Source: Streptomyces sp. B21-105 (GTDB lineage Bacteria > Actinomycetota > Actinomycetes > Streptomycetales > Streptomycetaceae). From it: a DNA stretch of 64,000 nucleotides. The notes beneath the pieces are model-generated. The model was not told the origin of the DNA and did not search any database. It saw only the letters and a list, made by a program, of their open reading frames with translations. Below, piece after piece: positions 17,922-56,061 of this stretch (positions within the stretch are counted from its first letter, which is position 1; the number at the start of each line of letters is the position of its first letter). The DNA is taken from contig NZ_JARUMJ010000001.1 of assembly GCF_036898465.1 (NCBI RefSeq), forward strand, positions 8,060,001 to 8,124,000, read 5' to 3'. The position numbers were made by a program, and so were the translations under genes.

Positions 17922-18896
17922 TCAGCCCGCGGCGCGGGCCGCCATGCGGGCCTTGCGCGCGGCCAGCTTCTCGTCGAACTTCAGGGCCTCGGCGTCCAGG
18001 CCGCCCATGTACAGGCCGAGCTCCTCCTGCGCCTGCCGCCCCTCGGGGCCGAGGCCGTCGATCTCCATGACCTTCAGGAAGCGCAGCACGGGCTGGATGA
18101 CGTCGTCGTGGTGGATGCGCAGGTTGTAGATCTCGCCGATCGCCATCTGCGCGGCCGCCCGCTCGAAGCCGGGCATGCCGTGGCCGGGCATGCGGAAGTT
18201 CACGATGACGTCGCGCACGGCCTGCATGGTGAGGTCGGGGGCGAGCTCGAAGGCGGCCTTCAGCAGGTTGCGGTAGAAGACCATGTGCAGGTTCTCGTCG
18301 GTCGCGATGCGCGCCAGCATGCGGTCGCAGACCGGGTCGCCGGACTGGTGGCCGGTGTTGCGGTGCGAGACACGGGTCGCCAGCTCCTGGAAGGACACGT
18401 ACGCGACCGAGTGCAGCATCGAGTGCCGGTTGTCCGACTCGAAGCCCTCGCCCATGTGGGCCATCCGGAACTGTTCCAGCTTGTCCGGGTCCACCGCGCG
18501 TGAGGCGAGGAGGTAGTCGCGCATCACGATGCCGTGCCGGCCTTCCTCGGCGGTCCAGCGGTGCACCCAGGTGCCCCAGGCGCCGTCCCGGCCGAAGAGC
18601 GAGGCGATCTCGTGGTGGTAGCTGGGCAGGTTGTCCTCGGTGAGGAGATTCACGACCAGCGCGATCCGGCCGATCTCGGTGACCTTGGACTGCTCCTTGC
18701 CCCAGGCCTCGCCGTCCTCGAAGAAGCCGGGGAAGTTGCGGGCGTCGCTCCACGGCACGTACTCGTGGGGCATCCAGTCCTTGGTGACCTTCAGGTGCCG
18801 GTTGAGTTCCGCCTCGACCACTTCCTCCAGCGCGAACAGCAGCTTGGCGTCGGTCCAGACGGCCGGATTGCCGAGGTGAGGGGAGGTGATCGTCAC
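17922..18896 (-). CDS. ferritin-like acyl-[acyl-carrier-protein] desaturase
   Basis: 324-residue soluble di-iron desaturase, which introduces a double bond into acyl-ACP using O2 and ferredoxin. The two iron-binding helical motifs are EEGRHG (in WTAEEGRHG) and DENLHM (in IATDENLHMVF), matching the ExxH pairs of plant-type and actinobacterial DesA proteins. GTG start at 18896. A pair of 13-bp direct repeats sits about 70-90 bp upstream and probably regulates it. The gene adjusts membrane unsaturation. Confidence 0.9.
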   Translation of the reverse strand: MTITSPHLGNPAVWTDAKLLFALEEVVEAELNRHLKVTKDWMPHEYVPWSDARNFPGFFEDGEAWGKEQSKVTEIGRIALVVNLLTEDNLPSYHHEIASLFGRDGAWGTWVHRWTAEEGRHGIVMRDYLLASRAVDPDKLEQFRMAHMGEGFESDNRHSMLHSVAYVSFQELATRVSHRNTGHQSGDPVCDRMLARIATDENLHMVFYRNLLKAAFELAPDLTMQAVRDVIVNFRMPGHGMPGFERAAAQMAIGEIYNLRIHHDDVIQPVLRFLKVMEIDGLGPEGRQAQEELGLYMGGLDAEALKFDEKLAARKARMAARAAG

Positions 18897-42694: not shown

Positions 42695-43663
42695 TCAGGG
42701 GCGGTGCAGCCGCCAGCCCTGCCACGCCGACTCGACCATCTGCCGCACCCCTCGCCGGGCCGTCCACCCCAGTTCCCGGGCCGCCAGTCCCGCCGCGGCC
42801 ACCGCGCGCGGCGCGTCCCCGGGCCTGCGCCCCTCCACGACCGCCGGGCGGGTGTCGCCGGTGACCTCGCCGATGAGGGTGACCAGCTCGCGCACCGAGA
42901 CGCCCTCGCCCCGGCCGATGTTCACCGTCAGGTCGCCCGCCGCGTCCGGCGCGCTCAGCCGCCGGGCCGCCGCGAGATGGGCCTCGGCCAGGTCCGCCAC
43001 GTGGATGTAGTCCCGCACACAGGTGCCGTCCGGCGTCGGATAGTCGGCGCCGAAGATCCGCGGGGCCTCGTCGCGGGTCAGCCGGTCGAAGACCATCGGG
43101 ACGACGTTGAAGATCCCGGTGTCGGCCAGCTCGGGCGCCGCCGCCCCGGCCACGTTGAAGTAGCGCAGGCACGTCGTCGCGATGCCGTGCGCCTGCCCCG
43201 CCGCCCGCACCAGCCACTCCCCGGCGAGCTTGGTCTCGCCGTACGGGTTCACCGGCGCGCACGGGGTGTCCTCGGTGATGAGGTCCACATCGGGATTGCC
43301 GTAGACGGCGGCGGAGGAGGAGAACAGGAACCGCCGGATCCCGGCCTCGGCGACCGCCTCGAGCAGTGTGGCGAGACCGCCCACGTTGTCCCGGTAGTAG
43401 CGGGTGGGCTGCGCCACCGACTCGCCGACCTGCTTGTGCGCGGCCAGGTGCACCACACCGGTCACGGCGTGCTCCGCGAGGGTCTTGCGGAGCAGGTCGC
43501 CGTCGAGCGCAGAGCCCCTGACGAGCGGGACGTCCGCCCCGAGCCGGGCGGTGACGCCGGTCGAGAGGTCGTCCAGCACGACGACCTTTTCTCCGGCCCC
43601 CGTCACGGCCCGCGCCACATGGGCCCCAATGTATCCGGCTCCGCCGGTGATCAGCCACGTCAT
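42695..43663 (-). CDS. galE: UDP-glucose 4-epimerase
   Basis: 322-residue extended SDR that interconverts UDP-glucose and UDP-galactose. NAD motif GGAGYIG at residues 7-13, active-site SSSAAVYGNP and NPYGETK (YxxxK), and the CLRYFNVAGA and VRDYIHVADLA blocks are typical of GalE. Divergent from the CDP-alcohol/glycan operon across 330 bp, so it probably supplies galactosyl or related nucleotide sugar for that operon's glycosyltransferase (inference). ATG 43663. Confidence 0.9.
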   Translation of the reverse strand: MTWLITGGAGYIGAHVARAVTGAGEKVVVLDDLSTGVTARLGADVPLVRGSALDGDLLRKTLAEHAVTGVVHLAAHKQVGESVAQPTRYYRDNVGGLATLLEAVAEAGIRRFLFSSSAAVYGNPDVDLITEDTPCAPVNPYGETKLAGEWLVRAAGQAHGIATTCLRYFNVAGAAAPELADTGIFNVVPMVFDRLTRDEAPRIFGADYPTPDGTCVRDYIHVADLAEAHLAAARRLSAPDAAGDLTVNIGRGEGVSVRELVTLIGEVTGDTRPAVVEGRRPGDAPRAVAAAGLAARELGWTARRGVRQMVESAWQGWRLHRP

Positions 43664-43993
43664 GCCTGTGACCCTATGCCGAGCGTGCGGAAGGCCCGGG
43701 CCGTGGGCGCTGTCCCGGATGTCGGATCCGGGGGGCGCGGTTTGTCGGCCGGGCCGCCGATCACCCATGATGATCTCGGCGAAGGCCGGTTCCACCGGGG
43801 GCCGGTGGCGCCGGGGGACCGTGTCGGCCGTGCCGGAACGGGCGGTGAACGCGGCCTTCCCGGCATCCGATAGCCTCTGCCGACATGCCGCCCGCCTGGT
43901 GCGGCGCCGGTGAGGTCGCCGGTGCAGCCAAGGGGCGCCCCCCCATCGTTCATGACCGGTGTGAAGCGCGCCGGACCCAGGGAGTGAGTTCGG
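43664..43993. other. divergent promoter region, galE / glycan operon
   Basis: 330 bp with no convincing gene. It must hold both promoters. AGGGAG at 43979-43984 serves as the ribosome-binding site for the TTG-started gene. No strong palindrome seen. Confidence 0.5.
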
Positions 43994-45796
43994 TTGCCGA
44001 CCGCCATCCTCACCGGCTCGCCGGTCCCCGGATCGTCGATCGAGGGCGACCTGCGGTCCCTCGGCTTCGACGTCCTGACCGCCTCCGACGCCGGTGACGC
44101 CGAAGCGCTCCTCGCCGCCGTCCCCGGCGACCAGCGCGTCGCCGTCGTGGATGCCCGCTTCGTCGGCCACGAGCACGCGCTGCGCCTGGGCCTCACCGAC
44201 CCCCGCTTCCCGCTCGCCGCGATCCCGGGCGCGCTGACCGCGCAACCGGCCGGCCGGCAGGCACTGACCCGCGCGATGGCCCGCGAGAACTCCGCGAGCG
44301 GCGGCACCCTGCTGGCCGTCGACAGTCTCGCCGACCGCGTGGTCGCCGCCCTGGACGCCGACGGCGCCGGCGTGCACCGCCCCGAACTGGGCAGCCTCGT
44401 CGCGCAGGTGCCCGCCGACCCGCAGACCCGCAACGAGGCCCGGCAGGCTGTGGCCGCCCTGGACGACGAGGCGGTACGGCTGAAGTCGGCCGTCAAGGCC
44501 CGCGACGGCTTCTTCACCACCTACTTCATCAGCCCGTACTCCCGCTACATCGCCCGCTGGTGCGCCCGCCGCGGCCTCACCCCGAACCAGGTCACCACCG
44601 CCTCGCTGATCACCGCGCTGATCGCGGCGGGCTGCGCGGCCACCGGCACCCGCGGCGGGTTCGTCGCGGCCGGCGTCCTGCTGATCGCCTCCTTCGTCCT
44701 GGACTGCACCGACGGCCAGCTCGCGCGCTACTCCCTGCAGTACTCCACGCTGGGCGCCTGGCTCGACGCGACCTTCGACCGGGCCAAGGAGTACGCCTAC
44801 TACGCGGGCCTCGCCCTGGGAGCGGCCCGCGGCGGCGACGACGTGTGGGCGCTCGCGCTGGGCGCCATGGTCCTGCAGACCTGCCGGCACGTCGTGGACT
44901 TCTCCTTCAACGAGGCCAACCACGACGCCACCGCCAACACCAGCCCCACCGCCGCGCTCTCCGACAAGCTCGACAGCGTCGGCTGGACGGTCTGGGTGCG
45001 GCGGATGATAGTCCTGCCCATCGGCGAACGATGGGCCATGATCGCCGTCCTCACCGCGGCCACCACACCCCGCATCACCTTCTACGCGCTGCTCGTCGGC
45101 TGCGCCTTCGCCGCGACGTACACGACGGCGGGCCGCGTCCTGCGCTCGCTGACCCGCAAGGCCAGGCGGACCGACCGGGCGGCGCAGGCGCTGGCGGACC
45201 TCGCGGACAGCGGGCCGCTGACCGAGGCGCTGGTCCGCCTCCTTCCCGGCAGGCCCCGGCCGACCGCGCCCCTCAGCGCCGCCGTGGGCGCCGTCCTGGT
45301 CACCCTCGGGGCCTGGATGTGGGGCCCGAGCTGGTGGGTCGTCCTGATGGCCGGCGCGTACGTGCTGGCGTGCGCCGAGGCCGTCACCCATCCCCTCAAG
45401 GGCGCCCTCGACTGGCTGATCCCCCCGCTGTTCCGCGCCGCCGAGTACGGCACGGTCCTGATCCTCGCGGCCCGCGCCGACGTGGACGGAGCCCTTCCGG
45501 CGGCTTTCGGGCTGGTCGCCGCCGTCGCCTACCATCACTACGACACGGTGTACCGCATCCGCGGCGACGCCGGAGCGCCGCCGGCCTGGCTGGTGCGCAC
45601 CGTCGGGGGACAGGAGGGGCGGACGCTGCTCGTGGCCGTGCTGGCCGCGCTGCTCACCGCTTCGCAGTTCACGGTCGCGCTCACGGTCCTCGCCGTGGCC
45701 GTCGCCGTGCTGGTGCTCCTGGAGAGCATCCGCTTCTGGGTGGCCGCCCACAAGGGCGGCGCTCCCGCCGTACACGATGAAGGAGAACCCGCATGA
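43994..45796 (+). CDS. CDP-alcohol phosphatidyltransferase with DUF5941 C-terminus
   Basis: 600-residue membrane protein. Residues 1-150 form a soluble domain with no recognised family. From about 170 is a CDP-alcohol phosphatidyltransferase core with the full catalytic motif: DCTDGQLAR, then G-x3-D-x3-D in LGAWLDATFDRAKEY. Such enzymes transfer a phospho-alcohol from a CDP-alcohol to an acceptor hydroxyl. The C-terminal 250 residues are further transmembrane segments (DUF5941-like). TTG start at 43994. Its stop overlaps the next start as ATGA, so it leads a coupled operon for a surface glycan or glycolipid. Confidence 0.85.
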   Translation: MPTAILTGSPVPGSSIEGDLRSLGFDVLTASDAGDAEALLAAVPGDQRVAVVDARFVGHEHALRLGLTDPRFPLAAIPGALTAQPAGRQALTRAMARENSASGGTLLAVDSLADRVVAALDADGAGVHRPELGSLVAQVPADPQTRNEARQAVAALDDEAVRLKSAVKARDGFFTTYFISPYSRYIARWCARRGLTPNQVTTASLITALIAAGCAATGTRGGFVAAGVLLIASFVLDCTDGQLARYSLQYSTLGAWLDATFDRAKEYAYYAGLALGAARGGDDVWALALGAMVLQTCRHVVDFSFNEANHDATANTSPTAALSDKLDSVGWTVWVRRMIVLPIGERWAMIAVLTAATTPRITFYALLVGCAFAATYTTAGRVLRSLTRKARRTDRAAQALADLADSGPLTEALVRLLPGRPRPTAPLSAAVGAVLVTLGAWMWGPSWWVVLMAGAYVLACAEAVTHPLKGALDWLIPPLFRAAEYGTVLILAARADVDGALPAAFGLVAAVAYHHYDTVYRIRGDAGAPPAWLVRTVGGQEGRTLLVAVLAALLTASQFTVALTVLAVAVAVLVLLESIRFWVAAHKGGAPAVHDEGEPA

Positions 45797-46545
45797 TCGG
45801 CCTCGTGCTGGCGGCCGGCGCCGGACGGCGTCTGCGGCCCTACACGGACAGTCTGCCCAAGGCGTTGGTGCCGGTGGGGCCCGCGGGCAGGGAAGGCGAG
45901 CCCACGGTCCTGGACCTGACGCTCGGCAACTTCGCCGAGATCGGGCTGACCGAGGTCGCGGTCATCGTCGGCTACCGCAAGGAGGCCGTGTACGCGCGCA
46001 AGGCGGCGCTGGAGGCCAAGTACGGCCTCAAGCTCACCCTCATCGACAACGACAAGGCCGAGGAGTGGAACAACGCCTACTCCCTGTGGTGCGGTCGTGA
46101 CGCTCTCAAGGACGGCGTGATCCTCGCCAACGGCGACACCGTGCACCCGGTGTCCGTGGAGAAGACGCTGCTCGCCGCCCGCGGCGAGGGCAGGAAGATC
46201 ATCCTCGCGCTGGACACCGTGAAGTCCCTCGCGGACGAGGAGATGAAGGTCGTCGTCGACCCCGAGCGGGGCATGACGAAGATCACCAAGCTGATGGATC
46301 CGGCCGAGGCCACCGGCGAGTACATCGGCGTCACCCTCATCGAGGGCGACGCGGCTCCCGAACTGGCCGACGCCCTCAAGGCCGTGTGGGAGACCGACCC
46401 GCAGCAGTTCTACGAGCACGGCTACCAGGAGCTGGTGAACCGCGGCTTCCGTATCGACGTGGCGCCGATCGGCGACGTCGAGTGGGTGGAGATCGACAAC
46501 CACGACGATCTCGCCCGTGGACGGGAGATCGCGTGCCTGTACTGA
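45793..46545 (+). CDS. sugar/alcohol-phosphate cytidylyltransferase-like nucleotidyltransferase
   Basis: 250-residue NTP-transferase. The nucleotide-binding signature is [24 protein letters not shown] at residues 5-28, with Lys24 before the ALV segment. The metal-binding Asp is in ILANGDTVHPV, and an EIDNHDDLARG motif near the C-terminus is shared with phosphocholine and inositol-phosphate cytidylyltransferases. It probably makes a CDP-alcohol for the two transferases of the operon. The glycerol-1-phosphate dehydrogenase homologue downstream suggests CDP-glycerol as product (inference). AGGAG 7 bases before its ATG. Confidence 0.82.
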   Translation: MIGLVLAAGAGRRLRPYTDSLPKALVPVGPAGREGEPTVLDLTLGNFAEIGLTEVAVIVGYRKEAVYARKAALEAKYGLKLTLIDNDKAEEWNNAYSLWCGRDALKDGVILANGDTVHPVSVEKTLLAARGEGRKIILALDTVKSLADEEMKVVVDPERGMTKITKLMDPAEATGEYIGVTLIEGDAAPELADALKAVWETDPQQFYEHGYQELVNRGFRIDVAPIGDVEWVEIDNHDDLARGREIACLY

Positions 46546-47594
46546 CCCGGCTGATCCCCTCGCCGCTCGTCGTGGACATCCGCCCGGGCGCCCTCGACGA
46601 CCTCGCGTACGTCCTTGCCGACGAGCGGATCTCGCACTCCGGCAAGCTCGCGGTCGCCGTCAGTTGTGGCTCGGGCGCGCGGCTGCGTGAGCGGCTGGCC
46701 GCCTCGATGCCGGACGCCACCTGGTACGAGGTGGGCGGCGGCACGCTGGACGACGCGATCAGGCTGGCCGGCGACATCAAGGCCGGCCACTTCGACGCGG
46801 TTGTGGGCCTGGGCGGCGGCAAGATCATCGACTGTGCGAAGTTCGCCGCGGCGCGGGTGGGCCTGCCGCTGGTCGCGGTGCCGACGAACCTCGCGCACGA
46901 CGGGCTGTGCTCGCCGGTCGCCACCCTCGACAACGACGCGGGCCGCGGCTCCTACGGAGTGCCGAACCCGATCGCCGTGGTGATCGACCTGGACGTCATC
47001 CGCGAGGCCCCGGTGCGGTTCGTGCGCGCCGGCATCGGCGACGCGGTGTCCAACATCTCGGCCATCGCGGACTGGGAGCTCGCCAACCGGGTCAGGGGCG
47101 AGAAGATCGACGGTCTCGCGGCCGCGATCGCCCGCCAGGCCGGCGAGGCCGTGCTGCGACACCCGGGCGGCATCGGCGACACCGGCTTCCTCCAGGTGCT
47201 GGCCGAGGCGCTGGTGCTCAGCGGCATCGCGATGTCGGTGTCGGGCGACTCCCGCCCCTCCTCCGGCGCGTGCCACGAGATCAACCACGCCTTCGACCTG
47301 CTCTTCCCCAAGCGGGCCGCCGCCCACGGCGAACAGTGCGGACTCGGCGCGGCCTTCGCGATGTACCTGCGCGGAGCCCACGAGGAGTCGGCCTACATGG
47401 CCCAGGTGCTGCGCCGGCACGGACTGCCCGTCCTGCCCGAGGAGATCGGCTTCACGGTGGACGAATTCGTCCGCGCCGTGGAGTTCGCCCCCGAGACCCG
47501 GCCCGGCCGCTACACGATCCTCGAACACCTCGACCTCGAGCCCGACCAGATCAAGGACGTCTACACCGAATATGTCAAGGCCATCGGTAGCTGA
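46533..47594 (+). CDS. sn-glycerol-1-phosphate dehydrogenase homologue (EgsA/AraM family)
   Basis: 353-residue member of the iron/zinc alcohol-dehydrogenase superfamily, closest in motifs to G1P dehydrogenases, which reduce dihydroxyacetone phosphate to sn-glycerol-1-phosphate. NAD motif GLGGGKIIDCAK (92-103); substrate loop VPTNLAHDGLCSP. Metal ligands are Asp170 (GIGDAVSNISAIADW), His248 (SGACHEINHAFD) and His265 (AAAHGEQCGLG). These closely follow the archaeal and AraM pattern. G1P is rare in bacteria, so its presence in a glycan operon is notable. GTG start overlaps the previous gene by 13 bp. Confidence 0.85.
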   Translation: MPVLTRLIPSPLVVDIRPGALDDLAYVLADERISHSGKLAVAVSCGSGARLRERLAASMPDATWYEVGGGTLDDAIRLAGDIKAGHFDAVVGLGGGKIIDCAKFAAARVGLPLVAVPTNLAHDGLCSPVATLDNDAGRGSYGVPNPIAVVIDLDVIREAPVRFVRAGIGDAVSNISAIADWELANRVRGEKIDGLAAAIARQAGEAVLRHPGGIGDTGFLQVLAEALVLSGIAMSVSGDSRPSSGACHEINHAFDLLFPKRAAAHGEQCGLGAAFAMYLRGAHEESAYMAQVLRRHGLPVLPEEIGFTVDEFVRAVEFAPETRPGRYTILEHLDLEPDQIKDVYTEYVKAIGS

Positions 47595-48351
47595 ACTCAG
47601 ACCGGTCGTCCACCCCCCGGGGGTGAAGGACCGTCGCAGCGGTGAGCACTGGATGGGACGCCTCTACATGCGTGAGGTGTCCCTGCGGGTGGACCGCTGC
47701 CTGGTGAACACCAGGGTCACGCCCAACCAGCTCACGTATCTGATGACCGTCTTCGGGGTGCTCGCGGCCCCGGCCCTGCTGGTGCCGGGAATCACGGGCG
47801 CCGTGCTCGGCGTGGTCTGCGTCCAGATGTACCTGCTGCTGGACTGTGTGGACGGCGAGATCGCGCGCTGGAAGAAGCAGTACTCGCTGGCCGGGGTCTA
47901 CCTGGACCGGGTCGGCGCGTACCTGACCGACGCGGCGGTGCTCGTCGGCTTCGGTCTGCGCGCCGCCGACCTGTGGGGCGGCGGGCGGATCGACTGGCTG
48001 TGGGCCTTCCTCGGCACGCTGGCCGCGCTCGGCGCGATCCTGATCAAGGCGGAGACCGACCTCGTCGGCGTCGCCCGGCACCAGGGCGGGCTGCCTCCGG
48101 TCAAGGAGGCGGCGTCCGAGCCGCGCTCCTCCGGCATGGCGCTGGCCCGCCGGGCCGCCGCGGCGCTCAAATTCCACCGGCTGATCCTCGGCATCGAGGC
48201 GTCCCTGCTCATCCTGGTCCTGGCCGTGGTCGACCAGGTGCGCGGCGACCTGTTCTTCTCCCGTCTCGGCGTGGCCGTGCTGGCCGGCATCGCGCTCCTG
48301 CAGACGCTGCTGCACCTGGTGTCCATCCTCGCCTCGAGCAGGCTCAAGTGA
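47572..48351 (+). CDS. second CDP-alcohol phosphatidyltransferase family protein
   Basis: 259-residue membrane protein with about six hydrophobic segments. The CDP-alcohol motif reads DCVDGEIAR, then LAGVYLDRVGAY. The D-x2-D-G-x2-A-R part is complete and the third Asp is present, but the position of the fourth, catalytic Asp (G-x3-D-x3-D) is Ala. It may use a shifted residue (YLTD is 4 residues later) or be impaired. It overlaps the preceding gene by 23 bp and the next by 4 bp (GTGA). It probably builds a phosphodiester-linked product together with the DUF5941 enzyme. Confidence 0.82.
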   Translation: MSRPSVAELRPVVHPPGVKDRRSGEHWMGRLYMREVSLRVDRCLVNTRVTPNQLTYLMTVFGVLAAPALLVPGITGAVLGVVCVQMYLLLDCVDGEIARWKKQYSLAGVYLDRVGAYLTDAAVLVGFGLRAADLWGGGRIDWLWAFLGTLAALGAILIKAETDLVGVARHQGGLPPVKEAASEPRSSGMALARRAAAALKFHRLILGIEASLLILVLAVVDQVRGDLFFSRLGVAVLAGIALLQTLLHLVSILASSRLK

Positions 48352-49231
48352 GCGCGGCGGCGAAGGTCGGCGCGGTCGTCATCACCATGGGCAACCGCCC
48401 CGACGAGCTGCGCGCCCTGCTCGACTCGATCGCCGGGCAGGACGGCGACCGGGTGGAGGTGGTCGTGGTCGGCAACGGCGCGCCCGTCCCGGACGTCCCC
48501 GAGGGCGTGCGCACGATCGAGCTGCCCGAGAACCTCGGCATCCCCGGCGGCCGCAACGTGGGCATCGAGGCCTTCGGGCCCGGCGGCCGCGACGTCGACG
48601 TCCTGCTCTTCCTGGACGACGACGGACTGCTGGCCCACACGGACACGGCCGAGCTGTGCCGCCGGGCCTTCGACGCCGATCCGGAACTGGGCATCATCAG
48701 CTTCCGGATCGCCGACCCGGACACCGGCGTCACCCAGCGCCGCCACGTGCCCCGGCTGCGCGCCTCCGACCCGATGCGCTCGTCCCGGGTCACCACCTTC
48801 CTCGGCGGCGCGAACGCCGTCCGCACGAAGGTGCTCGCGCAGGTCGGCGGTCTCCCCGGCGAGTTCTTCTACGCCCATGAGGAGACCGACCTGGCGTGGC
48901 GGGCGCTCGACGCGGGCTGGATGATCGACTACCGGTCGGACATGGTGCTGCACCACCCGACGACCGCGCCCTCGCGGCACGCGGTGTACCACCGCATGGT
49001 GGCCCGCAACCGGGTGTGGCTGGCCCGCCGGAACCTTCCCGCCCCGCTGGTCCCGGTCTACCTCGGGTCTGGATGGCGCTCACGTTGGTCCGCCGCCCCT
49101 CGGGGCCGGCCCTGAAGGCGTGGTTCGGCGGTTTCCGGGAGGGCTGGAGCACTTCCTGCGGGCCGCGCAGGCCCATGAAGTGGCGTACGGTGTGGCGGCT
49201 GACCCGACTGGGCCGGCCTCCGGTGATCTGA
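48348..49231 (+). pseudogene. family 2 glycosyltransferase, frameshifted near 3' end
   Basis: GT-A fold glycosyltransferase starting at GTG 48348. Features: VGAVVITMGNRPDELRALLDSI, NLGIPGGRNVGIE, the LFLDDDG metal motif, and YAHEETDLAWR. In the given sequence the frame ends at 49115 (255 aa). At about 49065-49067 one G is missing from a G run. Restoring it continues VYLGVWMALTLVRRPSG and WFGGFREGW to a stop at 49231, the usual C-terminus of this family. Either a sequencing error or a recent mutation. Coupled to the previous gene (GTGA). Confidence 0.75.
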
Positions 49232-49327
49232 CAAGCTCGTCCCTGAGGGCCCCGGGACGTAACCCGGGCCCCCGGCTCATGCGGGTCCCCCAGGGGCTGC
49301 GCATTCCGAAGACGAAGGTTCCTACCT

Positions 49328-50257
49328 GTGAGTGAGACAACGCATGACGTCGGAGTCGCCGTGAGCGCGCTTCCGTCGCCCGACGAGGGCCTCACGGCGG
49401 CGCAGCTGGCAGCCAAGTACGGGCTGGCCGTGAGCGGCGCCCGGCCTCCGCTGCGGGAGTACGTCCGCCAGCTGTGGGGGCGCCGTCACTTCATCCTGGC
49501 GTTCTCCCGGGCGAAGCTGGCCGCGCAGTACAGCCAGGCCAAGCTGGGCCAGCTGTGGCAGGTGGCCACGCCCTTGCTGAACGCTGCCGTGTACTTCGTG
49601 ATCTTCGGCGTTCTCCTCAACACCAGCCGCGGAATGCCCAAGGACGTGTACATCCCGTTCCTGGTCACCGGTGTCTTCGTGTTCACCTTCACGCAGACCT
49701 CGGTGATGAGCGGCGTCCGGGCGATCTCCGGCAACCTCAGTCTGGTGCGCGCGCTGCACTTCCCGCGTGCCTCGCTGCCGATCTCCCTCGCGCTGCAGCA
49801 GCTCCAGCAACTGCTGTACTCGATGCTGGTGCTGTTCGCCGTGGTGATCGGCATGGGCAGCTACCCGGACCTGTCCTGGGCGCTGATCGTCCCCGTGCTC
49901 GCCCTGCAGTTCTGCTTCAACATCGGCCTGGCGCTGGTGTTCGCGCGGGCCGGCGCCAAGACCCCCGACCTGGCGCAGTTGATGCCGTTCGTGATGCGGA
50001 CGTGGATGTACGCCTCCGGCGTGATGTTCTCCATCCCCGTCTTCCTCGCGGACAAGCCGCAGTGGGTGGCGAACGTCCTGCAGTGGAACCCCGCCGCCAT
50101 CTACATGGACCTCATGCGCTTCGCGCTCATCGAAAAGTACGGCGCGGAGAACCTGCCCGACCATGTCTGGGCGGTCGCGGGCGGCTGGGCGGTCCTCATG
50201 GCCGTCGGCGGGTTCGTGTACTTCTGGAAGGCGGAGGAGAGGTACGGCCGTGGTTGA
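49328..50257 (+). CDS. ABC-2 type polysaccharide exporter permease (Wzm/TagG-like)
   Basis: 309-residue permease with about six transmembrane helices. It begins with a cytosolic segment, then RRHFILAFSRAKLAAQYSQAKLGQLWQVATPLLNAAVYFVIFG, the conserved entry of ABC-2 exporters for O-antigen and teichoic acid. The end is WAVLMAVGGFVYFWKAEERYGRG, also typical. GTG start. It pairs with the overlapping ATPase gene and exports the product of the upstream genes, probably a lipid-linked glycan. Confidence 0.88.
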   Translation: MSETTHDVGVAVSALPSPDEGLTAAQLAAKYGLAVSGARPPLREYVRQLWGRRHFILAFSRAKLAAQYSQAKLGQLWQVATPLLNAAVYFVIFGVLLNTSRGMPKDVYIPFLVTGVFVFTFTQTSVMSGVRAISGNLSLVRALHFPRASLPISLALQQLQQLLYSMLVLFAVVIGMGSYPDLSWALIVPVLALQFCFNIGLALVFARAGAKTPDLAQLMPFVMRTWMYASGVMFSIPVFLADKPQWVANVLQWNPAAIYMDLMRFALIEKYGAENLPDHVWAVAGGWAVLMAVGGFVYFWKAEERYGRG

Positions 50258-51041
50258 TCCGCTTCCGGGAGACCAGGCGGGACGCAGGGTCCCGACGGTC
50301 ATCGCCGACCAGGTCCACATCGTCTACCGCGTCAACGGCGCGAAGAGCGGGAAGGGCAGCGCCACCGCCGCCCTCAGCCGTATCGTCAAGCGCGGCGAGG
50401 AGCGCGGCGTGCGCAGGGTGCACGCGGTGCGCGGCGTCTCCTTCGTCGCCCACCGGGGCGAGGCGATCGGCCTGATCGGCTCCAACGGCTCGGGCAAGTC
50501 CACCCTGCTGCGCGCCATCGCCGGGCTGCTGCCGCCGGAGAGCGGCAAGGTCTACACCGACGGCCAGCCCTCGCTGCTGGGCGTCAACGCCGCGATGATG
50601 AACGACCTCACCGGCGAACGCAACGTCATCCTGGGCGGTCTGGCCATGGGCATGTCCCGTGAGGAGATCAGGGAGCGCTACCAGGGGATCGTCGACTTCT
50701 CGGGCATCAACGAGAAGGGCGACTTCATCAGCCTGCCGATGCGTACCTACTCCTCCGGCATGCAGGCCCGGCTGCGGTTCTCCATCGCCGCGGCCAAGAA
50801 CCACGACGTCCTGATGATCGACGAGGCCCTCGCCACCGGCGACGCCAAGTTCCGCAGGCGCTCCGAGGCGCGGGTGCGGGAGCTGCGCGAGCAGGCCGGC
50901 ACGGTGTTCCTGGTCAGCCACAGCAACCAGTCGATCAGGGACACCTGCGACCGGGTGCTCTGGCTGGAGCGTGGTGAACTGCGCCTGGACGGGCCGACCG
51001 AAGAGGTCCTGCGGGAGTACGAGAAGTTCTCGGGCAAGTAG
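50250..51041 (+). CDS. ABC polysaccharide exporter ATPase (Wzt/TagH-like)
   Basis: 263-residue ATPase. Walker A GSNGSGKST. The signature region YSSGMQARLRFSIAAA is the variant found in capsule, O-antigen and teichoic-acid exporters rather than LSGGQ. Walker B is DVLMIDEALATGD. There is no C-terminal carbohydrate-binding extension, so export is probably not size-gated as in long Wzt proteins. GTG 50250 overlaps the permease gene by 8 bp and has AGAGG 7 bases upstream. Last gene of the operon; a strong terminator follows. Confidence 0.9.
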   Translation: MVDPLPGDQAGRRVPTVIADQVHIVYRVNGAKSGKGSATAALSRIVKRGEERGVRRVHAVRGVSFVAHRGEAIGLIGSNGSGKSTLLRAIAGLLPPESGKVYTDGQPSLLGVNAAMMNDLTGERNVILGGLAMGMSREEIRERYQGIVDFSGINEKGDFISLPMRTYSSGMQARLRFSIAAAKNHDVLMIDEALATGDAKFRRRSEARVRELREQAGTVFLVSHSNQSIRDTCDRVLWLERGELRLDGPTEEVLREYEKFSGK

Positions 51042-53421: not shown

Positions 53422-54923
53422 ACCACGAGCAGCTCGCGGACGCCGAGCAGGCGCCCGAACCTTCGGGGCGCACCGCCGTCGTCGTCGGGGGCGGGCTGGC
53501 CGGAGTCACCGCCGCGCTCGCGCTGGCCGACGCGGGCGTGCGCGTCACCCTGCTCGAGGGCCGTCCGCGCCTGGGCGGCCTCGCCTTCTCCTTCCGGCGC
53601 GGAGAGTTGACCGTCGACAACGGACAGCACGTCTACCTGCGCTGCTGCACCGCCTACCGGTGGTTCCTCGACCGCATCGACGGCAGCGCGCTGGCGCCGC
53701 TGCAGAACCGTCTCGACGTGCCCGTCGTCGACGCCGGCAAGCCCGAGGGGCGGCGGCTCGGCAGGCTGCGCCGCGACCCGCTGCCGGTGCCCCTGCACCT
53801 GGGGCGCAGCCTCGCCGCGTACCCGCACCTCTCGCTCGCCGAACGCGCCAAAGTGGGCCGCGCCGCACTCGCCCTCAAGGGCCTCGACCTCGCCGATCCG
53901 GCCCTGGACGCCCAGGACTTCGGCAGCTGGCTGACCGCCCACGGACAGTCGGCGCGCGCCGTCGAGGCCCTGTGGGACCTGGTCGGGGTCGCCACCCTCA
54001 ACGCGGTCGCGGGCGACTGCTCGCTGGGGCTCGCCGCGATGGTGTTCAAGACCGGCCTGCTGTCCGACCCGGGAGCGGCCGACATCGGCTGGGCGCACGT
54101 CCCGCTGGGCGAGCTGCACGACGGGCTGGCCCGCAAGGCGCTCGACGCCGCGGGCGTGCGCACCGAGGTCCGTACCCGCGTCACCTCCCTCGTTCCCGAC
54201 GGCGACGGGACGTGGAGCGTGCGGGTTCCCGGCGTGACGCTCCGCGCGGACGCCGTCGTGCTCGCCGTACCGCAGCGCGAGGCGTACGACCTGCTGCCCG
54301 ACGGAGCGCTCCCCGACGCGGGACGACTGCTGGAGATCGGCACCGCGCCGATCCTCAACGTGCATGTCGTCTATGACCGCAAGGTGCTCGACGCGCCCTT
54401 CTTCGCGGCCCTCGGCACCCCCGTGCAGTGGGTTTTCGACCGCACCCACGCCTCCGGGCTGCGCGAGGGCCAGTACCTCGCCCTGTCGCAGTCCGCCGCG
54501 CAGGACGAGATCGACGAGCCCGTCGCCGCGCTGCGCGAGCGCTACCTGCCAGAGCTGCGGCGGCTGCTGCCGGGCGCGCGCGGCGCCGAGGTGAAGGACT
54601 TCTTCGTGACCAGGGAGCGGACCGCCACGTTCGCCCCCACCCCGGGCGTCGGGCGGCTTCGCCCCGGCGCCCGCACCGAAGCCCCCGGCCTGTACCTGGC
54701 CGGAGCGTGGACCGCCACCGGGTGGCCCGCGACCATGGAGAGTGCGGTCCGCAGCGGTGTGAGCGCGGCGGACGCCGCGCTCGGCGCCCTGGGCCGGCCC
54801 CGACCCCGTCGCCTCTTCGCTTTCGAGGAAGCGGCCCACTGCATCGTCCCGGGGGGCGACCCCCGCACCCCCGGCCGAGAACCGGCGGGAACCGGCGTGC
54901 CCCTGCGAGGTGGCACCGGGTGA
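53418..54923 (+). CDS. hpnE: hydroxysqualene dehydroxylase HpnE (FAD-dependent)
   Basis: 501-residue FAD-dependent amine-oxidase/phytoene-desaturase-like enzyme that reduces hydroxysqualene to squalene. Dinucleotide fold VVVGGGLAGVTAALALADAG at residues 20-39; C-terminal FAD motif LYLAGAWTATGWPATMESAVRSG. The tail after ALGRPRPRRL is about 45 residues of low-complexity Gly/Pro/Arg sequence, perhaps read-through of a lost stop. ATG 53418 overlaps the DUF6380 stop. Confidence 0.92.
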   Translation: MNHEQLADAEQAPEPSGRTAVVVGGGLAGVTAALALADAGVRVTLLEGRPRLGGLAFSFRRGELTVDNGQHVYLRCCTAYRWFLDRIDGSALAPLQNRLDVPVVDAGKPEGRRLGRLRRDPLPVPLHLGRSLAAYPHLSLAERAKVGRAALALKGLDLADPALDAQDFGSWLTAHGQSARAVEALWDLVGVATLNAVAGDCSLGLAAMVFKTGLLSDPGAADIGWAHVPLGELHDGLARKALDAAGVRTEVRTRVTSLVPDGDGTWSVRVPGVTLRADAVVLAVPQREAYDLLPDGALPDAGRLLEIGTAPILNVHVVYDRKVLDAPFFAALGTPVQWVFDRTHASGLREGQYLALSQSAAQDEIDEPVAALRERYLPELRRLLPGARGAEVKDFFVTRERTATFAPTPGVGRLRPGARTEAPGLYLAGAWTATGWPATMESAVRSGVSAADAALGALGRPRPRRLFAFEEAAHCIVPGGDPRTPGREPAGTGVPLRGGTG

Positions 54924-54988
54924 CGTTCGATCAGCACGGCTCGGCACACCCCCGCACCCCCTCCGGTACCGCGACAAGAGGAGAATCT

Positions 54989-56061
54989 GTGCCCACTGTG
55001 CCCCCGGCCACGTCGGCCGCCCGGCGGACCGCGGTGGACGTGACCGCGCTCCTGGAGCGCGGCCGCACCCTGGCCACACCGGTGCTGCGGGCGGCCGTCG
55101 ACCGTCTGGCGCCGCCCATGGACACGGTCGCCGCCTACCATTTCGGCTGGATCGACGCGCAGGGCAACCCGACCGACGGCGACGGCGGCAAGGCCGTGCG
55201 CCCCGCACTCGCCGTGCTCTCCGCGGAGGTCGCCGGGCCGCTCCCGAGGTCGGCGTGCCCGGCGCGGTCGCCGTGGAGCTGGTCCACAACTTCTCGCTCC
55301 TGCACGACGACCTGATGGACGGCGACGAGCAGCGCCGGCACCGCGACACCGTCTGGAAGGTGCACGGTCCCGCCCAGGCCATCCTGGTCGGCGACGCCCT
55401 GTTCGCCCTCGCCAACGAGATCCTGCTGGAACTCGGCACGGCCGAGGCCGGCCGCGCCACGCGCCGGCTGACCACCGCCAGCCGCGCCCTCATCGACGGC
55501 CAGGCCCAGGACATCTCCTACGAACACCGCGACCGGGTCAGCGTCGAGGAGTGCCTGGAGATGGAGGGCAACAAGACCGGCGCCCTGCTGGCCTGCGCCA
55601 GCTCCATCGGCGCGGTCCTCGGTGGCGCCGACGAGCGCACCGCGGACACCCTGGAGAAGTACGGCCACCACCTCGGCCTCGCGTTCCAGGCCGTCGACGA
55701 CCTCCTCGGCATCTGGGGCGACCCGGAGGCCACCGGCAAGCAGACCTGGAGCGACCTGCGCCAGCGCAAGAAGTCGCTGCCCGTGGTGGCCGCCCTCGCC
55801 GCGGGCGGCTCCGCCTCCGAGCGGCTCGGCGAGATCCTCGCCGCGGACGCCAAGAGCAGCGACTTCGACAACTTCTCCGAGGAGGAGTTCGCGGCCCGGG
55901 CCGCCCTGATCGAGGAGGCGGGCGGCCGTGAGTGGACCGCCGGGGAGGCCCGCCGGCAGCACGCGGTCGCCATCGAGGCCCTGAACGCCGTGGACATGCC
56001 CGAGCCGGTGCGGGAGCGGTTCACGGCGCTCGCCGACTTCGTCGTCGTACGAAAGAGATGA
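54989..56061 (+). pseudogene. polyprenyl (farnesyl-type) diphosphate synthase, frameshifted
   Basis: Trans-prenyl diphosphate synthase expected to supply farnesyl diphosphate to HpnD. GTG 54989 has AGAGGAG upstream; GTG 54920, overlapping hpnE as GTGA, is in the same frame. The reading frame breaks at about 55235 where a G run reads GGG instead of GGGG, and the literal frame stops at 55315. With one G added the protein is 357 residues, with the first Asp-rich motif LLHDDLMDGDE and the second AVDDLLGIWGD intact. Everything else looks functional, so this is a recent mutation or a sequencing error. Confidence 0.8.

Follow-up and report, generated by a model that had tools for sequence, protein, structure and literature searches.

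In Streptomyces sp. B21-105 a stretch of 64,000 nucleotides (hereafter the window; positions 8,060,001 to 8,124,000 of contig NZ_JARUMJ010000001.1) contains, at 43994-51041 on the forward strand, an operon of seven collinear genes. Two adjacent members encode a LicC/IPCT-like nucleotidyltransferase (NT) and a dehydrogenase resembling glycerol-1-phosphate dehydrogenase (G1PDH). We propose that this pair stands in for the GpsA-TagD route as a non-orthologous source of CDP-glycerol, serving both the CDP-alcohol phosphotransferases (CDP-APs) encoded beside it and polymerases of the TagF type. Judging from sequence, we give this reading a probability of roughly 0.6. It draws on the observed gene content and its conservation, on co-occurrence with TagF-type proteins, on complementarity with TagD and on a second copy of the pair.

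Do genomes with the G1PDH gene also encode TagF-type proteins of family PF04464? At 1e-40 a G1PDH match was found in 85 of 345 class genomes, 52 of these outside Streptomyces. Thirty-two of the 52, chosen for variety, were compared with 80 of the 260 genomes that had no match. PF04464 is present in 31/32 of the former and 21/80 of the latter (Fisher p 1e-12); strong matches (E<1e-25) were found in 29/32 and 15/80, respectively. Among genomes of at least 3 Mb the counts are 27/29 with G1PDH and 11/46 without (p 2e-9). The present genome itself has five PF04464 matches. Four of the five proteins were tested, and all score best on the TarF glycerol-phosphate transferase, far above TarL. TagF2 matches in three loci (L246, L247 and L250) were rejected; they are GT2 domains, not PF04464.

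If the pair supplies CDP-glycerol, where does that leave TagD, the usual CDP-glycerol synthase? We compared 63 genomes: 37 with G1PDH and 26 that have PF04464 yet show no match to G1PDH at 1e-40. A clear TagD (at least 115 bits, the next score being 68) occurs in none of the 37 but in 11 of the 26 (p 1e-5). By family the counts are 0/12 and 6/12 (p 0.014), and with TagD over its curated cut-off they are 0/37 and 5/26 (p 0.009). Conversely, at 1e-15 the NT is absent from all 26 PF04464 genomes without a G1PDH match. Within a single genus (g231) the same exchange is seen: G753 carries the NT-G1PDH pair (with a weak PF04464 match) but lacks TagD, and G474 and G630 carry TagD but lack the NT. TagD (TIGR01518) exceeds its cut-off in 0 of 150 Streptomyces genomes, and the present genome has no match at E 0.001.

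The pair also occurs a second time in this genome (L124:9923-11717; G000:C1:3345421-3347216, G000 being the present genome), 99.55% identical to the operon pair with eight differences in 1795 bp. The duplicated unit is exactly NT plus G1PDH, from the NT start codon to near the G1PDH stop. Its neighbours are rne on one side and rplU-rpmA-obg on the other; past obg, 4.2 kb from the copy, come two PF04464 genes. Two copies are present in 12 of 150 Streptomyces genomes, and duplication of the NT cluster in 76 of 929 genomes has been reported (PMC13118837). We examined 14 second-copy genomes, comprising 11 of these 12 Streptomyces (the second copy of G382 fell outside the set) and three from the class set. 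In all 14 the second copy stands just upstream of rplU. A PF04464-like match lies 2.5-5.6 kb away in ten and was not seen in four, and the NT was not found beside the second G1PDH copy in two. In trees, 12 of the 14 rne-side G1PDH copies group into two clades separate from the operon copies and that of G680 is unresolved; the second copy of the present genome nests with its own operon copy. The copies thus look like old paralogues. The nesting, together with NT genes identical between both loci in G000 and G372, we read as gene conversion in these two genomes. Placement upstream of rplU-rpmA-obg could tie precursor supply to growth.

Several observations weigh against the proposal. Of the 26 PF04464 genomes without G1PDH, 15 also lack a clear TagD, so other supplies or substrates must exist. 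Nineteen of the 32 non-Streptomyces genomes come from one family, which makes the count by family (8/9 with G1PDH and 8/33 without, p 8e-4; five families on both sides) the fairer figure. The PF04464 matches of G753 and G746 are weak, and in G121 (locus L133) a G1PDH-like gene stands divergent from a TagF-type gene in a genome with no NT match. None of the four tested PF04464 proteins of the present genome reaches an equivalog cut-off. Neither does the NT; the dehydrogenase scores 245.8 bits on NF002022 (long open reading frame, ORF; cut-off 413) and the ATPase of the operon 178 bits on the TagH equivalog (cut-off 320). LicC-like enzymes are diverse. CpgD gave no product with glycerol-1-phosphate (PMC12275187). 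TagD-like proteins of 54-71 bits, below the cut-off, are present in 61 of 150 Streptomyces; these genes perhaps belong to another CDP-polyol pathway. The second copy is separated from the TagF-type genes by rplU-rpmA-obg, and because its placement reflects few insertion events rather than 14, we count it as suggestive. Two neighbourhoods may be recorded here. The one TagD-like case examined (L163, of L163-L170) adjoins a CDP-AP and a WcaI-like glycosyltransferase, and the G1PDH gene of G121 has a glycerophosphodiester phosphodiesterase and a mannitol dehydrogenase nearby.

Within the 32 fetched non-Streptomyces stretches, a profile purpose-built from three domains gave strong PF04464 matches in only two; weak partial matches (22-43 bits) occur in seven, strong and weak together accounting for eight. 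In favour of the proposal, operon genes and PF04464 are found on one stretch or contig in G478, G466, G121 and G108; in G204 PF04464 has CDP-AP1 and the ABC pair, not NT-G1PDH, for company. One genome, G517, carries the pair but lacks PF04464 altogether. Might the product then be a glycerophospho-glycolipid or phosphoglycan in its own right, made by way of the operon's CDP-APs, the link to TagF reflecting no more than a shared type of envelope? G517 would fit, as would the company the pair keeps in the 32 stretches, with a CDP-AP in 26 and a strong PF04464 in two. However, no CDP-AP match accompanies the second copies (14/14 fetched stretches), and complementarity with TagD would not be expected of such a product. 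We consider it improbable.

The genes of the window that concern us are as follows.

42695-43663, reverse strand: galE, UDP-glucose 4-epimerase, divergent from the operon; 322 residues; TIGR01179 at 313 bits (cut-off 262).
43994-45796, forward strand: CDP-AP1/DUF5941, 600 residues; PF01066 and PF19365; a CDP-alcohol phosphotransferase domain preceded by an N-terminal domain without an assigned fold and followed by DUF5941 at the C terminus.
45793-46545, forward strand: NT, LicC/IPCT-like nucleotidyltransferase, predicted CTP:glycerol-phosphate cytidylyltransferase; PF00483/PF12804.
46533-47594, forward strand: G1PDH/AraM-like metal-dependent dehydrogenase, 353 residues; NF002022, PDB matches and metal ligands.
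47572-48351, forward strand: CDP-AP2, CDP-alcohol phosphotransferase without the fourth motif Asp; PF01066; start uncertain, 47623 being preferred in one analysis.
48348-49115, forward strand: GT2 glycosyltransferase; PF00535; shorter than its orthologues.
49328-50257, forward strand: ABC-2 permease of the TagG/Wzm type; PF01061.
50250-51041, forward strand: ABC ATPase of the TagH/Wzt type; best PDB matches TagH 7dd0 and TarH 6jbh.

All the parts named in the original prediction are thus present, the operon proper consisting of seven genes with galE divergent. The coupling of the genes by overlap, also claimed there, is seen with the chosen starts at five of the six junctions (4, 13, 23, 4 and 8 bp); a gap separates GT2 from the permease. 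Two ORFs were rejected: one of 402 residues from 46386, an over-long start for the G1PDH gene, and an antisense one of 1026 residues at 42695-45775. A promoter scan found none.

How well is this gene set conserved? The co-conservation across Streptomyces that had been suggested as a check holds: among 80 named loci, the best 80 of at least 564 matched stretches, all seven genes are collinear in 75 and incomplete in five, and the G1PDH gene is present in 150 of 150 Streptomyces genomes. Such constancy indicates that the set is not a chance assembly. The galE gene accompanies it in 62 of the 80 loci. Nor is the locus a speciality of Streptomyces, since other actinobacterial families also have NT-G1PDH, in most cases accompanied by CDP-APs. 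The 32 non-Streptomyces stretches contain G1PDH in 32, the NT in 31, a CDP-AP in 26 (CDP-AP1 in 22, CDP-AP2 in 24), GT2 in 22 and both ABC subunits in 15; several of these stretches stop at contig ends. In G503 the NT lies on the same contig, outside the fetched stretch, and the G1PDH stretch contains TarS-linker glycosyltransferases.

What compound might the pair make? The dehydrogenase has the complete set of metal ligands originally predicted (D170, H248 and H265), each matched by the same residue in the alignment with 4rgq, and the core blocks are shared. Its nearest structures in the PDB are 3ce9, named glycerol dehydrogenase, and 4rgq, 4rfl and 5fb3, named glycerol-1-phosphate dehydrogenase; the latter three we take to be archaeal in origin. 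By homology its product is probably the sn-1 form of glycerol phosphate (G1P), made from dihydroxyacetone phosphate (DHAP). This mirror-image compound is normally a trademark of the archaea. The NT has the nucleotidyltransferase fold and signature, and it lies near CTP-using members of the LicC/IPCT type. With its profile the top PDB match is 1jyk, a CTP:phosphocholine cytidylyltransferase, then 6pd1 and 4jd0, both presumably CTP users; the IPCT structures 2xme and 4mnd are more distant. We assume that it is of the COG1213 type, and predict it to be a CTP:glycerol-phosphate cytidylyltransferase. Bacterial homologues of G1PDH, those of Actinobacteria included, have already been reported (PMC6431249 and PMC5059525).

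A different stereochemistry would give a different account. The pair might make sn-3 CDP-glycerol for teichoic acid, either because the dehydrogenase has switched its stereospecificity or because the NT takes glycerol-3-phosphate (G3P) from GpsA while the dehydrogenase acts elsewhere. The score of the dehydrogenase below the G1PDH equivalog cut-off would allow this, and glycerol-phosphate cytidylyltransferases able to accept both enantiomers are described in PMC8262930. On the other hand, chains named glycerol-1-phosphate dehydrogenase are among the nearest solved relatives, and NT and G1PDH are nearly always together and copied together (the exceptions being G121 and the second loci of G406 and G544). 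This pairing would be needless if the NT used G3P, and therefore counts against a supply of the sn-3 form, which we regard as unlikely.

Could the polyol be something other than glycerol? In the manner of TarJ and TarI, the pair might make a CDP-linked ribitol, arabitol, erythritol or similar polyol for the PF04464 enzymes and the CDP-APs. A reductase with a cytidylyltransferase is the layout of TarIJ, ribitol-phosphate polymerases belong to PF04464 as well, and varied polyol phosphates are found in the walls of actinomycetes. However, the dehydrogenase groups with G1PDH and glycerol dehydrogenases, and the four PF04464 proteins prefer TarF by far to TarL, albeit with none at cut-off. We think another polyol rather doubtful.

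A further possibility is that G1P feeds ether lipids of the archaeal type, along the lines of Bacillus subtilis, where AraM supplies PcrB. Some Streptomyces are reported to possess the full set of three archaeal lipid genes (PMC6431249). Yet the genes of the operon and the scanned genes of the second locus include no prenyl-glyceryl-phosphate synthase (no genome-wide search was made), and the partners of G1PDH here are instead a cytidylyltransferase, CDP-APs and an exporter. An ether-lipid role is thus very improbable.

The two membrane phosphotransferases differ from one another. CDP-AP1 has the DxxDGxxAR...G...D...D motif of CDP-alcohol phosphotransferases, with D237, D240, G241, R245, G254, D258 and D262 invariant among 19 aligned homologues and A244 at 90% or more. 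Its closest PDB structure is AF2299 (4o6m), then the IPCT/DIPPS protein 4mnd; CDP-AP2 gives the same order, with AF2299 at E 5e-13. In an alignment of 14 sequences CDP-AP2 keeps the first three motif aspartates while the fourth is Ala. At that position the other 13 have His (11), Ala (one) and Asp (one, the most divergent at 24% identity). CDP-AP2 may use a different catalytic base or may be no ordinary transferase. A cytidylyltransferase-CDP-AP fusion of the IPCT/DIPPS type is absent, the ORFs being separate and NF041135 reaching at most 53.6 bits (cut-off 580). DUF5941 was found in 9/9 Streptomyces and four others among 296 phylum genomes; we found no literature on it. In some distant relatives (L125, L226 and L127) the DUF5941 part is apparently a separate short ORF following a shorter CDP-AP1, and the Streptomyces CDP-AP1 therefore looks like a fusion.

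From alignment start to stop the GT2 gene has 255 codons, compared with 289-297 in all 79 named loci that hold it. The copy of the present genome thus looks broken at its end, by a frameshift or an assembly error near the 3' end, and is intact elsewhere. As for the exporter, the ATPase finds TagH 7dd0 (8e-54) and TarH 6jbh at the top of the PDB. A single further match to the permease exists in the genome, 65-66% identical and adjoined by an ATPase 75% identical to that of the operon. This paralogous TagGH-like pair (L260) adjoins three PF04464 genes and a divergent TetR gene.

How might these proteins act together? The catalytic steps, the acceptor and the chirality are predictions. The G1PDH would reduce DHAP with NAD(P)H to glycerol phosphate, by homology G1P, which the NT would join with CTP to give CDP-(1-)glycerol. 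The membrane CDP-APs would transfer glycerol phosphate from this donor to a lipid-borne glycan acceptor, possibly the primer or linkage unit of wall teichoic acid or a lipoteichoic anchor. GT2 would add a sugar, the TagGH-like ABC pair would export the product, and TagF-type polymerases encoded elsewhere in Streptomyces and most of its relatives would draw on the same CDP-glycerol pool. According to PMC8262930, Cps7D, a TagF-like polymerase, builds its polymer from CDP-1-glycerol, and an activity of A. fulgidus favours G1P; the use of CDP-1-glycerol is thus chemically possible. The originally predicted series, from reduction of DHAP through activation as a CDP-alcohol, transfer and glycosylation to export, therefore survives as a plausible scheme. 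Its product, left there as a surface glycan or glycolipid, can be narrowed to teichoic acid by the co-occurrence with TagF, the absence of TagD, the second copy near TagF and the paralogue of the TagGH-like exporter.

Tentatively, with the odds somewhat against so full a statement, we extend the proposal to the polymer itself. The poly(glycerol phosphate) wall teichoic acid, perhaps also the lipoteichoic acid, of Streptomyces and many Actinobacteria would be made from CDP-1-glycerol, an archaeal-type G1PDH and a LicC-like NT having replaced TagD. Both polymers would come from a single machinery and have the same sn-1 chirality, opposite to that of the wall teichoic acid of Bacillus, with the CDP-APs priming or anchoring the chains. 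According to PMC3196553, sequenced Actinobacteria are without clear LtaS orthologues, and in S. hygroscopicus the wall polymer closely resembles the lipoteichoic one, a shared pathway being yet to be proved. If our proposal is true, the pair fills the missing CDP-glycerol step in actinobacteria without TagD, its supply of precursor accords with the likeness of these polymers, and GlpQ offers a direct test of chirality in a bacterial wall polymer (PMC7086022). A 2026 synteny paper already ties the region to teichoic acid, without this mechanism. We found no published proposal of an NT-G1PDH pathway in the literature looked at, in which subscription papers were sparsely covered; of SCO6752-6757, presumably the gene numbers of this operon, SCO6753 was the only one found there.

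On its 3' side the operon is followed by hpnC, hpnD, hpnE, a polyprenyl transferase, squalene-hopene cyclase, hpnH, ispG and dxs. A shared envelope role with these hopanoid genes had been suggested. It is unsupported, since none of the 32 non-Streptomyces stretches has an HpnC or HpnD match; hopanoid neighbours were seen in Streptomyces only. The polyprenyl transferase (window 54910-56061, forward strand) is similar to a cargo protein of family 2 encapsulins (319.5 bits against a cut-off of 450). Elsewhere in the window, 18478-18545 on the forward strand matches the Rfam family ASdes, a TB small RNA, at 66.7 bits.

Which known systems does the operon most resemble? With the GpsA-TagD-TagB/F-TagGH pathway of Bacillus subtilis it shares a CDP-glycerol donor (here predicted), and PF04464 transferases in the same genomes, and its ABC pair is a putative exporter resembling TagGH. 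Unlike that pathway, it is without TagD, the donor coming from an unrelated nucleotidyltransferase and an AraM-like dehydrogenase; membrane CDP-APs stand in place of TagB or besides it, and the predicted chirality of the glycerol is opposite. The IPCT-DIPPS system of Archaeoglobus and the Thermococcales, with its glycerophosphoinositol chemistry, is akin through the CDP-APs, which are nearest AF2299 and IPCT/DIPPS, and more distantly through the NT. Here, however, the genes are separate, the operon has no inositol-1-phosphate synthase but an ABC exporter, and the predicted product is an envelope polymer rather than a solute. AraM-PcrB of B. subtilis likewise involves a bacterial G1PDH homologue, coupled there to a prenyltransferase and here to a cytidylyltransferase and CDP-APs. 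In the pneumococcal and staphylococcal TarI-TarJ, too, a reductase and a cytidylyltransferase supply a CDP-polyol, but both proteins come from other families than the NT and the G1PDH-like enzyme. Archaea use CDP-1-glycerol, according to PMC8262930, which cites Rodrigues et al. In Streptomyces roseosporus a TetR gene (tagR) stands divergent from tagGH, reported as a wall teichoic acid exporter (PMC10269677); L260 has the same layout, and the ABC pair of the operon is its paralogue, lacking the regulator and accompanied by NT-G1PDH and CDP-APs. Finally, CpgD is a COG1213-type CTP enzyme that forms a CDP-three-carbon donor, resembling TagD in function yet unrelated to it; according to PMC12275187, it differs from the predicted NT in taking phosphoglycerate, not glycerol-1-phosphate, and in serving a sphingolipid pathway.

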